Positions 15,912-57,641 of a DNA stretch of 64,000 bases are shown piece by piece (the first letter of the stretch is position 1; every line of letters begins with the position of its first letter). The DNA lies in contig JAOUEW010000001.1 in assembly GCA_029858505.1 (NCBI GenBank), forward strand, positions 62,001 through 126,000, in the 5' to 3' direction. This DNA comes from Deltaproteobacteria bacterium (GTDB lineage: Bacteria; SAR324; JACQKK01). The notes under the pieces were generated by a model. That model worked only from the letters and a program-made list of their open reading frames with translations, did no database searches and was not told where the DNA came from. A program made the position numbers and the translations under genes.

Positions 15912-15939
15912 GGCGGGGTTCTAAGCGGGTTCCCCCGCC
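15912..15939 (+). terminator. GC hairpin immediately after yebC
   Basis: GGCGGGG (15912-15918) pairs with CCCCGCC (15933-15939), starting on the base after the stop codon. No U-run follows directly (GCGAAAG), though CCCTTTTTC comes about 15 bases later. It may be a weak or Rho-assisted terminator. Confidence 0.35.
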
Positions 15940-16025
15940 GCGAAAGATAGGCTACCCTTTTTCAATTGATCTGATGATTTGGTTTGACCCCGATTTGAAC
16001 AGGCATCACCCCTTTCAGGCCATCC

Positions 16026-17081
16026 ATGATTATTCCCAAAGTCAGCAAACTGACCCCCGAACAAGAAGCCGAACTCATCCGCGTGACTGGAGAGTTTGGC
16101 GTGTCGTTGCAAACCATTCGGGGTGAAAGCCAGACCATCTACGCCATGAAAGGCGATGAAACCAGCGAACTGCTGGTGGCCCGCATTGAGGGGTTGGAGT
16201 ACATCGACCGGGTGGACCGCATTCAGACCCCCTACAAACTGATGGCCCGCAACAACGAGCTGTCCAAGCATAAAATTCGGGTGGGGTCCAAAATCATTGG
16301 CCAAGACTTTGTGGTGATGGCCGGGCATTGCACCATTGACCCCAAAAACCCCACGGCCTTTTTTGAAACCGCCATGGCGGTGAAGGAAGCCGGGGCCGAC
16401 GTGGTGCGGGGAGGCATTTGGAAGCCCCGCACCAACCCCCATTCTTACCAGGGAGACGCCCAGGCGTTGGACGTGCTGATGGACGCCCGGGCTAAAACCG
16501 GCCTGCCGGTCATCACCGAAGTGATGGATGAACAGCAGTTGGTGCTGGCGGTGGAGCGGGGGGTGGACATGCTGCAGATTGGCGCCCGCAACGCCCTGAA
16601 TTATAGTCTGCTGAGAGAGGTGGGGCGGCAGGTGTTTGGCAAGCCCATCACCGTGCTGCTGAAGCGGGGGATGCACATGGGGCGCATCGAGGAATTTTTG
16701 CTGGCCGCAGAATATATTGTCTCCGGCGGTAACCCCAACATTCTGCTCACCCCCCGGGGCACCCTGCCCGCCATGGATGGCTACCGCAACCATCCCGATG
16801 AGTGCATCACCCCCCTGCTGAAAGAAAAAACCTGGGCGCCAGTGGTGGTGGATCCCTCTCACTCGGTGGGCAAGGCGGCCTATGTTCCGTTCTCCGCCCT
16901 GGCGGCGGTGGCCTATGGGGCCGACGGCTTGATTGTGGAAACCCACGTGAACCCCAAGACCGGCATTGGCGACGACCCCAAGCAGGCCATTACCCCAGAG
17001 GTGCTGGCCAAGTTGATTCAAGACAGCCGGGCGGTTCATGCCATGATGCGGGGGCCGGTGCAACTGGTGGCCAAGGGGTAA
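16026..17081 (+). CDS. aroF: 3-deoxy-7-phosphoheptulonate (DAHP) synthase, type I-beta with N-terminal ferredoxin-like domain
   Basis: The 351-residue protein has a 70-85 residue N-terminal domain (V-T-G-E-F-G-V-S-L-Q-T-I-R-G), as in the Thermotoga-type AroF whose ferredoxin-like domain mediates feedback inhibition. The TIM barrel follows: V-M-A-G-H-C-T-I-D (here H-C, where the family often has P-C), G-A-D-V-V-R-G-G-I-W-K-P-R-T-N-P, Q-I-G-A-R-N, L-L-K-R-G-M, D-P-S-H-S-V-G-K and V-E-T-H-V-N-P. It condenses PEP and erythrose-4-phosphate, the first step of aromatic biosynthesis; aroA is at 42.97 kb. No obvious operon partner is present. Confidence 0.92.
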   Translation: MIIPKVSKLTPEQEAELIRVTGEFGVSLQTIRGESQTIYAMKGDETSELLVARIEGLEYIDRVDRIQTPYKLMARNNELSKHKIRVGSKIIGQDFVVMAGHCTIDPKNPTAFFETAMAVKEAGADVVRGGIWKPRTNPHSYQGDAQALDVLMDARAKTGLPVITEVMDEQQLVLAVERGVDMLQIGARNALNYSLLREVGRQVFGKPITVLLKRGMHMGRIEEFLLAAEYIVSGGNPNILLTPRGTLPAMDGYRNHPDECITPLLKEKTWAPVVVDPSHSVGKAAYVPFSALAAVAYGADGLIVETHVNPKTGIGDDPKQAITPEVLAKLIQDSRAVHAMMRGPVQLVAKG

Positions 17082-51916: not shown

Positions 51917-52504
51917 ATGGCCCAGATGTATGCCATTGTGTCCTCCCTAGACAAAGCCCGGTTTTTTTTAGAGCAGCAGGTTCCCTGGCTTCAGCTCCGC
52001 CTGAAAGAAACCCCCCTCCAGCCCCATTTGGCCGAAATTTCCCGCTGGGCGGCCAAGTACCCCCGAACCCGGCTGGTGATCAACGATGACCCCGATTTTG
52101 CCCGCCAGGCGGGGGCCTGGGGGGTGCACCTGGGGCAGGAAGACTTGACCCGGTTGGGGTGGACCCCTGGTAGGGCCGAGGGCCTGGGATTGGGTATTTC
52201 TACCCATACCCCCCAAGAAATCGCCCGGGCCCTGGCCTTGTCTCCCGATTACATCGGCTTTGGCCCGATTTTTCCCACGTCTTCCAAACAGGTGGCCCAC
52301 CCCCCCCAGGGGGTGGGCCGGTTGGCCCAGGTTGTCCAGCAGGCTGGGGCAATGGGGGTTCCCGTGGCGGCCATCGGGGGAATCCACTGGGGCAACCTTC
52401 CCCAGGTCACTGCCACCAAAGTGGGCATGGTGGCTCTCCTTTCGGCCTGTGACAATATCACAAAAGCAGAAGATATACGCAACTGGATGGATATGATGGC
52501 CTGA
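51917..52504 (+). CDS. thiE: Thiamine-phosphate synthase family protein
   Basis: The 195-residue product shows the ThiE barrel motifs L-Q-L-R-L-K-E, L-V-I-N-D-D, W-G-V-H-L-G-Q-E-D-L, L-G-I-S-T-H-T-P-Q-E, Y-I-G-F-G-P-I-F-P-T-S-S-K and A-A-I-G-G-I. It condenses the thiazole and pyrimidine moieties into thiamine monophosphate, or acts as the related TenI-type isomerase. At 195 residues it is slightly short for ThiE (about 210), so TenI is an alternative. It follows fxsA in one operon. Confidence 0.85.
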   Translation: MAQMYAIVSSLDKARFFLEQQVPWLQLRLKETPLQPHLAEISRWAAKYPRTRLVINDDPDFARQAGAWGVHLGQEDLTRLGWTPGRAEGLGLGISTHTPQEIARALALSPDYIGFGPIFPTSSKQVAHPPQGVGRLAQVVQQAGAMGVPVAAIGGIHWGNLPQVTATKVGMVALLSACDNITKAEDIRNWMDMMA

Positions 52505-52830: not shown

Positions 52831-52846
52831 TGGCACGGGCCTTGAA
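52831..52846 (+). promoter_or_regulatory. Sigma54-like promoter
   Basis: TGGCACG-GGCC-TTGAA fits the sigma54 (RpoN) consensus TGGCACG-N4-TTGCW with one change, A for C at -12. The -24 GG is at 52832-52833. A start near 52857 would place the structured leader (52866-53086) at the 5' end of the transcript, whose first gene is at 53090. The -12 C is usually well conserved, so the call is tentative; no activator site was identified. Confidence 0.45.
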
Positions 52847-52865
52847 AATGGTATAGGCATGAACG

Positions 52866-53089
52866 AGACAAGGAGGCCGCAAGGCTTCCGGTGAGGGAAG
52901 CCCCCCCACCCCGTTGAGTAACCCCGGAAAAAGAAACCGGTTCCCGTTCCCGTCTCCCCTGCCCAAGCCCGGCGGAAACGGGGACCGGTCTCTTCACCAG
53001 GGTTCCTTCTTCGGACTCCCTATCATCCAACCATCGGCTCTGGGTCACCGATGGGTCCCACTTAGCAGGAAGGCCTGAAGGAGGCCGCC
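52866..53089 (+). ncRNA. Strongly structured 5' leader (candidate regulatory RNA)
   Basis: Three solid hairpins lie in order before the 56-residue gene. The first is GGAGGCC-GCAA-GGCTTCC (52872-52889), a GNRA tetraloop with one G-U pair. The second is a 17-position stem, 52936-52952 with 52973-52989, one mismatch and one wobble, enclosing a 20-base C-rich loop. The third is CCATCGG/CCGATGG (53031-53037 and 53048-53054). Finally GGCCT (53072-53076) pairs with AGGCC (53082-53086), burying part of the AGGAGG ribosome-binding site (53079-53084). The sequence matches no riboswitch or 6S, SRP or RNase P core that I know. Confidence 0.6.
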
Positions 53090-53260
53090 ATGATGAAAGC
53101 CCACGTCACTCACGATCAGGTGTTGAATGCCATTCAAAAGTTCCAGGCTCAAGGTGGAATTATTCACAAGCTGCCGGAACAAAAAATCATTCGCGCCGAA
53201 ATGTTGGGGGAGGAAAAGCACAACCCGTTTGAGACCCTGACCAACATCATGCCGATGTAA
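53090..53260 (+). CDS. 56-residue orphan protein behind a structured leader
   Basis: The product begins MMKAHVTHDQVLNAIQKF and includes Q-G-G-I-I-H-K-L-P-E-Q (residues 21-31) and a C-terminal H-N-P-F-E-T-L-T-N-I-M-P-M. The G-G-x-I-x-K-L-P phrase resembles one found in assorted small bacterial proteins, but I cannot assign a family. AGGAGG lies 5 bases before the first ATG; a second ATG follows directly. A perfect stem with T-run (53297-53337) ends the transcript and the next 600 bases are repeats, so this is a one-gene transcript. The minus-strand frame over it lacks those signals. Confidence 0.75.
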   Translation: MMKAHVTHDQVLNAIQKFQAQGGIIHKLPEQKIIRAEMLGEEKHNPFETLTNIMPM

Positions 53261-53296
53261 GGGAAGGTTCGGGTTGTTAGACAGTTCCTCCGAAAC

Positions 53297-53337
53297 AACA
53301 TGCCGGATGGGAAAACCCATCCGGCATGTTTGTTTTT
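53297..53337 (+). terminator. Strong Rho-independent terminator of the 56-residue gene
   Basis: AACATGCCGGATGGG (53297-53311) and its exact complement (53316-53330) form a 15-pair stem with an AAAA loop, followed by TGTTTTT. It is 36 bases after the stop codon. Confidence 0.95.
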
Positions 53338-53378
53338 ACCCCAAATATTATTTCCCTCGCTTACCTGCCCCTCCCTTT

Positions 53379-53819
53379 ACTCGAATCCACTGGTTATTCT
53401 ATTCATCCGTTCGGAAAACACAGACTGGACGGAAGCAAGCACATCACCCACCGGATTCGAGCGAATCCCGTAAAGCACCCCTCCCTGGCACCTGTGGTGC
53501 CCGTCCCTCCCCATCGGAGAGGGACAATACTCGAATCCACTGGTTATTCTATTCATCCGTTCGGGAAACATAGGCTGGACGGAAGAAAGCACATCACCCA
53601 CTGGATTCGATTTAATTCCCCTCCACGAAGGGGAGGGGATGCCCCCGCAGGGGGTAGGGGAGGGGTGCTGTTCCCGTAAAGCACCCCTCCCTGGCACCTG
53701 TGGTGCCCGTCCCTCCCCATCGGAGAGGGACAATGCTCGAATCCACCGGTTATTCTATTCATCCGTTCGGAAAACACAGACTGGACGGAAGAAAGCACAT
53801 CACCCACTGGATTCGAGTA
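53379..53819 (+). repeat. Tandem array of three family A elements with identical spacers
   Basis: Units lie at 53379-53461, 53529-53610 and 53735-53819. Each starts CTCGAATCCACTGG (or CACCGG), continues TTATTCTATTCATCCGTTCGG and ends CACTGGATTCGA(G). Two 62-base spacers (53467-53528 and 53673-53734) are identical and carry TCCCTCCCC/GGGAGGG arms. A third section (53611-53672) differs. The ends are inverted repeats, so each unit can fold back. It fills the 728-base gap 53261-53988 together with the terminator. Confidence 0.9.
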
Positions 53820-53988
53820 CTGGGGTGTTGTTTTGGCTAGCCCGTAACACAAATAGTTTTATTGATACAAATAGATATCTAACATTAGGTGGCTTGTCGG
53901 CTACTTGGACTCGGTTTTGCAAAACTTCTGATAACTGCCCTCAACAACCCTGTATGGCTATTTTGCAATGAACCGGAAAGGAACCCCC

Positions 53989-54831
53989 ATGGCTTCGGAT
54001 ACCCTGACCCCATTCGACACACCTGAAGACAGTGCCCCCCGGAAAAAATCCGGATCGGACACCCCCGGCCCCCTGCGGGTGGATTATCTGCCCAAAATGA
54101 ACCGCCCGGTGCTGGTGGCAGCCTTCGACGGCTGGAACGACGCGGGCCAAGCGGCCACCCGGGCCGTGGCCCATTTGGTTCGCACCTTGGGGGCCCAGTC
54201 GTTTGCCCATTTGGCTGCCGATGAGTTTTATTTGTTCTCTCAGAACCGCCCCAGGGTGCGGTTAGACGCCGAGGGCCGCCGCCGGGTACGCTGGCAGCCC
54301 AACGAGTTCTATCACGCCAAAGCCGCCGATGGCACCGACATCGTGCTGTTTTTGGGCACCGAACCCAACCTGCGCTGGCAGACCTATGGGTCGGCCTTGA
54401 TGGCCATGATTCATCGGCTGGGGATTGAGCGGGTGTACCTGCTGGGGGCTTATCTTTCCGACGCGTTGTACACGGACCCGGTGGAGGTTCAGCAGCACGC
54501 GTATGGCGTGGGCTTGCCGCCAGAGATGGCCCCGTTTAATTACGAGGGGGAAACCGGAATTGTGGGCCTGATGGCCGCCGCCCTGGAGGAGGCCCGCCAG
54601 CCCATGGTGAACCTGTGGGCATCGGTGCCCTATTACATCACGTTGGCCAATCCACGGGCTTCTTTGGCTTTGTTGAGGCATGTCGAGTCGCTGACGGGGA
54701 CGACCTTCAACTTGAAGGATTTAGAAAAAGAAGCCGAGGATTTTCAAGAGAAAGTAGCCGGAGCCATGGCTGCCGACCCCCAGGCCGTGGGGTTTTTGAA
54801 GGAAATGAAAAAGCAGGGTGTGTTGAACTAA
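53989..54831 (+). CDS. PAC2 family protein
   Basis: The 280-residue product (from ATG 53989) has the PAC2-type core: M-N-R-P-V-L-V-A-A-F-D-G-W-N-D-A-G-Q-A-A-T, the R-P-R-V segment, L-G-T-E-P-N-L-R-W-Q-T-Y, V-Y-L-L-G-A-Y-L-S-D, and Y-E-G-E-T-G-I-V-G-L. Members relate to proteasome assembly chaperones but bacterial ones are uncharacterised ATP-grasp-like or carboxylate-amine-associated proteins. GGAAAGGAA at about 53975-53983 supports ATG 53989 over 53968. The N-terminal 35 residues are Ser/Pro/Asp-rich and likely disordered. It stands between two repeat blocks. Confidence 0.85.
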   Translation: MASDTLTPFDTPEDSAPRKKSGSDTPGPLRVDYLPKMNRPVLVAAFDGWNDAGQAATRAVAHLVRTLGAQSFAHLAADEFYLFSQNRPRVRLDAEGRRRVRWQPNEFYHAKAADGTDIVLFLGTEPNLRWQTYGSALMAMIHRLGIERVYLLGAYLSDALYTDPVEVQQHAYGVGLPPEMAPFNYEGETGIVGLMAAALEEARQPMVNLWASVPYYITLANPRASLALLRHVESLTGTTFNLKDLEKEAEDFQEKVAGAMAADPQAVGFLKEMKKQGVLN

Positions 54832-56417: not shown

Positions 56418-57641
56418 ATGAGCGACAAACCCCACACCATTCAACTGGCCGCCCGGATGGGCCTGCTGCCCGATTACATGTTTGCCAAACTGAACGCTCT
56501 GCGGCAGGCCAAGCGCCAAGCGGGCATGGACTTGATTGACATGGCCATGGGCAACCCCAAGGACCCCACCCCCCAGCCCATCGTGGATAAACTCACCGAG
56601 GTGGTGCAAGACGCCCGTAACCACCGTTATTCGGTGGCGTCGGGCATTTACAACCTGCGTAACGAGCTCGCCAAGTATTACCAAGCCCAATATGGCGTGG
56701 GGTTGAACCCGGAAGAGGAAGTCATTTTCACCATCGGTTCGAAAGAGGGATTTTCGCATCTGTGTTTGGCGTTGATTGGCCCCGGCGACAAGGCCATGAT
56801 TCCTTCGCCGTCCTTTCCCATTCATTCCTACGCGGTCATTTTGGCGGGGGGAGAAACCGTCAGCCTGCCGGTGATGGATGACGAAGCCTTTTTGCGGGGG
56901 ATTGACGATGCCTGCAGTAAAATTCATCCACCCCCCAAAGTGTTGTTCATGAATTACCCCCACAACCCCACCGGAAAAACGGTGGAAATCGCCTTCTTCA
57001 ACGAGGTGGTGAAACTGGCCCGCAAGCACAACCTGATCGTGGTGCACGACTTTGCTTACAGCCGGTTGAGTTACGACGGGTTCGAGGCCCCCAGCTTTTT
57101 GCAGGCCGAGGGGGCCAAGGAAGTGGGGGTGGAATTTGGCACCATGTCCAAGGCGTTCAACATGGCGGGCTGGCGCATTGGTTACGCCCTGGGCAACAAA
57201 GACATCATCAAGGCCCTGGCCCGCATTAAAGGTTATTACGATTACGGCATCTTCCAGGCCATCCAAATCGCCAGCATCATCGCCCTGCGGGAATGCCAAG
57301 ACTATGTGGTGAAGCAGGTGGAGATTTACCAAAAGCGCCGCGACGTGGTGCTGGCGGGGCTGCGCTCCGCCGGGTGGGAGGTGGAAACTCCCAAGGGCGG
57401 CATGTTTGTGTGGGTGAAAATTCCCCAGCCCTGGGCCCAAGAGGGTTCCACCAATTTTGCCCTGCGGCTGATTGAAGAAGCTGAACTGGTGGCCTCTCCC
57501 GGCGCGGGGTTTGGGCCCGAGGGCGAGGGCTGGCTGCGGATGGCCTTTGTGGAAAACGAGCAGCGGCTGAAGCAGGCCATGCGTAACCTGAAGCAGGCTT
57601 TCAACGTGCCGGGCGGATTGAAAAAAGCTCAGGGGCAGTAA
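56418..57641 (+). CDS. alaC: Class I aminotransferase, AlaC-type (glutamate--pyruvate)
   Basis: The 407-residue PLP enzyme has I-D-M-A-M-G-N-P, Y-S-V-A-S-G-I-Y-N-L-R, G-S-K-E-G-F-S-H-L, P-H-N-P-T-G-K and the lysine in T-M-S-K-A-F-N-M-A-G-W-R-I-G (about residue 244). By eye it is very close to E. coli AlaC (G-S-K-E-G, A-L-A-R-I-K-x-Y-x-D-Y-G). It interconverts alanine/pyruvate and glutamate/2-oxoglutarate. It precedes the PPDK-like gene by 55 bases, which would also act on pyruvate. Confidence 0.9.
   Translation: MSDKPHTIQLAARMGLLPDYMFAKLNALRQAKRQAGMDLIDMAMGNPKDPTPQPIVDKLTEVVQDARNHRYSVASGIYNLRNELAKYYQAQYGVGLNPEEEVIFTIGSKEGFSHLCLALIGPGDKAMIPSPSFPIHSYAVILAGGETVSLPVMDDEAFLRGIDDACSKIHPPPKVLFMNYPHNPTGKTVEIAFFNEVVKLARKHNLIVVHDFAYSRLSYDGFEAPSFLQAEGAKEVGVEFGTMSKAFNMAGWRIGYALGNKDIIKALARIKGYYDYGIFQAIQIASIIALRECQDYVVKQVEIYQKRRDVVLAGLRSAGWEVETPKGGMFVWVKIPQPWAQEGSTNFALRLIEEAELVASPGAGFGPEGEGWLRMAFVENEQRLKQAMRNLKQAFNVPGGLKKAQGQ

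Follow-up and report, generated by a model that had tools for sequence, protein, structure and literature searches.

A SutA-RBD-like small-protein family of the SAR324 phylum and a conserved sigma54-like motif upstream of one of its genes

The window analysed here, a 64,000-nucleotide stretch of DNA from the SAR324 lineage, contains a compact locus (Table 1) which the initial annotation described as a self-contained unit with nothing else in the area, encoding an orphan protein behind a leader that might act as a regulatory switch or small RNA. The question is whether these signals belong to an isolated, RNA-controlled gene or to something more widely shared. The observation itself is confirmed and its interpretation is partly supported: the gene belongs to a conserved protein family, lies in conserved synteny and is preceded by a conserved promoter motif, and in the present genome it is followed by a strong terminator. 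What makes the locus interesting is the protein family with its conserved promoter motif, and not the RNA.

Table 1. Features of the locus (positions in the window)
Feature	Position	Strand	Basis or remark
thiE-like gene (TMP synthase), conserved upstream neighbour	51917..52504	+	synteny
sigma54-like promoter motif TGGCACGGGCCTTGAA (GG-N10-GA)	52831..52846	+	conserved upstream of all syntenic orthologs; p=0.004
predicted 5' leader	52857..53089	+	predicted start 12 nt past the -12 element; stable, not conserved in orthologs
hairpin GGAGGCC-GCAA-GGCTTCC, GNRA-type loop	52872..52889	+	sequence, folding
long hairpin, 4+13+5 pairs	52931..52994	+	folding; single copy in genome
7-pair hairpin CCATCGG/CCGATGG	53031..53054	+	sequence, folding
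5-pair stem GGCCT/AGGCC, overlaps half of RBS AAGGAGG (53078-53084)	53072..53086	+	sequence, folding
56-codon gene, SAR324 GG-x-I-x-KLP small-protein family, SutA-RBD-like	53090..53260	+	ORF, alignment, synteny, profile search
intrinsic terminator, 15-pair stem, AAAA loop, T-rich tail	53297..53340	+	terminator scan
PAC2-family gene, conserved downstream neighbour	53968..54831	+	synteny

Judged from its open reading frame and its relatives, the 56-codon gene is real. When the 56 residues are compared with 58 related genomes, a check which the initial annotation had proposed, matches are found in 28 of them, often several per genome. The aligned members, which are about 55-65 residues long, share the signature ITHxExxxAxxxFxxxGGxIxKLPxQ...VGxxKxxxYE and are defined in the present analysis as the SAR324 GG-x-I-x-KLP family. 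A profile built from 24 members finds the family in 51 of the 52 SAR324-phylum genomes examined, with one to 12 copies in each, which refutes the description of the protein as an orphan. The window's own genome has six profile matches, among them the window protein at E=1.5e-22 (the 24 rows of the profile include this protein), and this protein carries the family-defining residues G22, G23, L28 and P29 as well as A14, F18, I25, G40 and E48. The SAR324-phylum genomes are of marine and groundwater origin, and named records with the same loci are MAGs assigned to the SAR324 cluster, to Lambdaproteobacteria or to 'Deltaproteobacteria', which places the window in a SAR324 bacterium. Across five close pairs within the family pS is always above pN, most clearly between G013 and G024 (0.47 versus 0.03), and a tblastn search with a close family member found no phage homologues.

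The surroundings of the gene are shared as well, contrary to the statement that the area is otherwise empty: the order hom-fxsA-thiE-[small gene]-PAC2 is conserved in seven related genera. The small gene is flanked by thiE and/or PAC2 in G002, G003, G004, G005, G006, G008 and G009, some contigs ending inside the neighbourhood, and it therefore forms a syntenic ortholog group, which excludes a chance open reading frame. In G005 about 1.6 kb of extra, largely coding-looking sequence separates thiE from the small gene. Paralogs in the window's own genome lie elsewhere, one (L035, G000:C1:70000-77500) between a RelA/SpoT-like gene and serS (seryl-tRNA synthetase), these names being assigned by eye, and another with a pmbA/pcnB pair on one side and a ribonucleotide reductase gene on the other, named from sequence recognition. 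The RelA/SpoT-like neighbour is suggestive in that it fits a starvation-related or stringent-response role, without amounting to proof. G008 holds two closely related copies (L038 and L055), each close to a contig end.

On sequence comparison, the sigma54-like site is the best-conserved regulatory feature of the locus. The near-consensus RpoN site of the initial annotation is present, TGGCACGGGCCTTGAA differing from TGGCAC-N5-TTGCW at one position (with canonical consensus weights fixed beforehand, p=0.004 against shuffles), and the motif is kept upstream of all syntenic orthologs. The small gene is supported as a transcription unit of its own. In the orthologous intergenic regions it takes the form GGCAY-N5-NTGWA and lies 123-258 nt upstream of each start codon. 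When gapped patterns were enumerated blindly in the eight orthologous upstream regions, GGCA-N7-TG-N-A alone was present in every one; in 100 shuffled sets no pattern went beyond four or five of eight. The window site has the sigma54 core TGGCAC, with GG at -24 and the exact 10-nucleotide spacing; the GC expected at -12 reads GA.

The GGCAC core and the exact GG-N10-G spacing are common to RpoN promoters (consensus YTGGCACG-N4-TTGCW), but at -12 every ortholog has A or T in place of the C, so that GC is replaced by GA or GT in nine of nine upstream regions, and because of this only the sites of the window and of G002 are significant in the canonical sigma54 model. Genome-wide, the motif occurs at background level in the window's own genome with no enrichment, so that a different factor may be what binds there; the motif also precedes the paralog on contig C14 and is absent upstream of 17 other paralogs. 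The amtB promoters, taken as a yardstick of sigma54 preference, gave no clear sites. The main rival on the promoter is accordingly that GGCAY-N5-NTGWA is bound by a dedicated regulator, or by another sigma factor, serving one gene, and this is quite possible, if somewhat short of even. The spacing and core speak against it, as does the presence in the genome of RpoN and of enhancer-binding proteins (six full-length sigma54-activator matches, two of them identical copies). Two family members outside the syntenic group, L059 (G012:C14) and L063 (G001:C9), moreover have near-canonical sigma54 sites, CGGCACGTTAGTTGCT and TGGCAAGCGGATTGCA, about 180-220 nt upstream, which, with TTGCT and TTGCA, come near the full consensus. 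The balance tips slightly towards a variant sigma54 promoter at the locus.

The function of the peptide is approached through its likeness to SutA of Pseudomonas aeruginosa (PF20661, NF041490; PDB 7f0r, 7xl3, 7xl4), with which it has in common a helix, a Gly-Gly turn and a strand. The Pfam SutA-RBD model (PF20661) matches 12 of the 24 family members at E<=0.1, the best at 6.7e-6, and among NCBIfam models SutA matches three of 24 and PFL_1563 ten of 24; searched with the family profile, the whole PDB gives SutA (7f0r) as its first match, which is weak (E=0.16). In the SutA-RNAP structures the beta-protrusion is contacted by L67, M71, F74, L75, G78/G79, V81 and I84 (PMC9300723). Of these L67, M71, F74, G78, G79, V81 and I84 align with V11, I15, F18, G22, G23, I25 and L28, positions which are hydrophobic or Gly in all 24 members, so that seven of the eight contact positions are kept in the window protein, the exception being SutA L75, which is Q19. 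An AF2 model predicts a single confident helix at residues 8-20, in agreement with the layout of the SutA-RBD, and the remainder has low confidence. Since the family matches, the contact positions and the predicted helix all agree with the SutA-RBD, the window peptide is best described as a putative RBD-only SutA-like protein, which would bind RNAP.

By score it falls short of a SutA equivalog. The members that were rescored individually all fall below the curated cut-offs: the best A1 member reaches 25.8 bits against 29.3 for PF20661 and 13.9 against 145 for NF041490, and the window protein by itself matches neither a SutA model in Pfam or NCBIfam nor PFL_1563 (NF058628). The polar residues K60 and R64 of SutA are absent at the aligned positions. 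In contrast to SutA, the family proteins are about half as long, exist in multiple copies, have a conserved C-terminal VGxxKxxxYE of their own and lack the D/E-rich N-terminal arm, only seven mostly neutral or basic residues preceding the helix of the window protein. The PFL_1563 family is of similar size (a 51-position model) and its similarity covers the N-terminal 30 residues of the matching members, but these reach only 13-22 bits (best 22.2) against a cut-off of 60. An alternative reading is that the short A-x-x-x-F-x-x-x-GG-x-I-x-x-LP module of this same family resembles the SutA-RBD only through the shared layout of helix, Gly-Gly turn and strand, and that the protein has a different binding partner, for which the conserved VGxxKxxxYE segment provides the specificity. 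The missing direct match of the window protein is in its favour, as are the conservation of a C-terminal segment which the SutA matches, confined to helix, turn and strand, do not cover, and PHROGs of unknown function that match equally weakly. Among Pfam families it is SutA-RBD that most members match, and seven SutA contact positions fall on conserved family columns, which makes this reading rather unlikely. SrpA (PMC5945682) was also considered and rejected, as it is an HTH_XRE protein. A separate observation is a short frame in the own genome (L126, G000:C12, near 26200) that exceeds the Pfam SutA-RBD cut-off (30.9 versus 29.3 bits), in surroundings that look like a prophage region.

The preferred reading, held at about even confidence, is that the locus is a regulated, monocistronic gene for a stand-alone SutA-RBD-like RNAP accessory peptide of SAR324, with RNAP binding and sigma54 dependence as its inferred parts. 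RNAP-sigma54, turned on by an enhancer-binding protein, would transcribe the small gene under a starvation-type signal, and the amphipathic helix (residues 8-20) of the peptide, the Gly-Gly turn and the following strand would dock on the RNAP beta protrusion like the SutA RBD. Activation by SutA requires its acidic D/E-rich N-terminal arm (PMC9300723), and because the peptide is without this arm it would probably tune or compete at the beta protrusion rather than wedge the lobe open as SutA does. SutA has been described as occurring in most Alteromonadales and Pseudomonadales, with no homologue among other characterised proteins (PMC9300723). If the reading is true, RBD-only relatives throughout an abundant uncultured lineage would give the beta-protrusion docking module a longer history and a wider use than has been recognised, and would supply naturally reduced forms in which docking could be studied apart from activation. 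A bolder and, taken as a whole, unlikely extension is that such stand-alone peptides, phylum-wide and multi-copy in SAR324, occupy the RNAP beta protrusion, and that the copy between thiE and PAC2, under a variant sigma54 promoter (GG-N10-GW), would constitute a sigma54-triggered RNAP switch in slow-growing ocean bacteria.

The leader is as structured as first described. All three stable hairpins were found in place, including the one with the GNRA-type loop; the hairpin given as 17 positions is a 13+4-pair helix extended by five more pairs, and the small stem does cover half of the RBS. The 11-nt string AAGGAGGCCGC occurs twice, at 52870-52880 and 53078-53088, as claimed, although only 10 of its letters had been written out. 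The folding energy has a z-score of -2.7, one of 200 shuffles being as stable. The hairpins, the repeated AAGGAGGCCGC and the half-buried RBS do not recur in the orthologs; the eight orthologous leaders compared, at between-genus distance, are about 120 to 250 nt long with differing folds and z-scores from -3.8 (G008 copies) to +0.35, and no common structure was found among them. In blastn comparisons with the orthologs almost only the coding region matches. The stems are thus not conserved in related genomes at this distance, the outcome set beforehand as speaking against the initial annotation. The RBS is no more hidden than elsewhere, with a mean unpaired probability of 0.55 that is mid-range among the orthologs (0.27-0.85). 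There is no Rfam match at the gathering threshold and, in leaders that are not alignable, no covariation of the kind that marks a riboswitch or known RNA family. That the leader is a lineage-specific switch or attenuator of the small gene, in which pairing partners are swapped between the two AAGGAGGCCGC copies and the RBS stem, would suit its stability, its repeated 11-mer and its half-paired RBS, but is very unlikely given this divergence, the ordinary RBS accessibility and the empty Rfam search. A riboswitch or sRNA reading has no comparative support at between-genus distance. In the preferred reading, the main effect of the hairpins, in the present species, would be on how stable the transcript is or how fast it is translated. 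Weak Rfam matches at permissive thresholds were set aside as chance-level, mostly minus-strand hairpin look-alikes, and the leader was rejected as a repeat element, being single-copy in the genome. The leaders of L038 and L055 in G008 are strongly folded (z about -3.6 and -3.8), and one stem shows by eye an apparent compensatory change from A-U to G-C.

At the other end of the unit the 15-pair terminator with its T tail was recovered, and it is the one exception to terminator and sigma70 scans that otherwise gave near chance counts. Directly behind it, at 53316-53816, lie three copies of an interspersed palindromic repeat of about 95-145 bp, CTCGAATCCACTGG...CCACTGGATTCGAG, which has 50 matches in the own genome and looks like a MITE/REP-type element. 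Contigs C6 and C11 of assembly G000 give identical matches at identical coordinates (e.g. 15929-16429 and 57093-57184), which suggests that one stretch of contig is present twice in the assembly.
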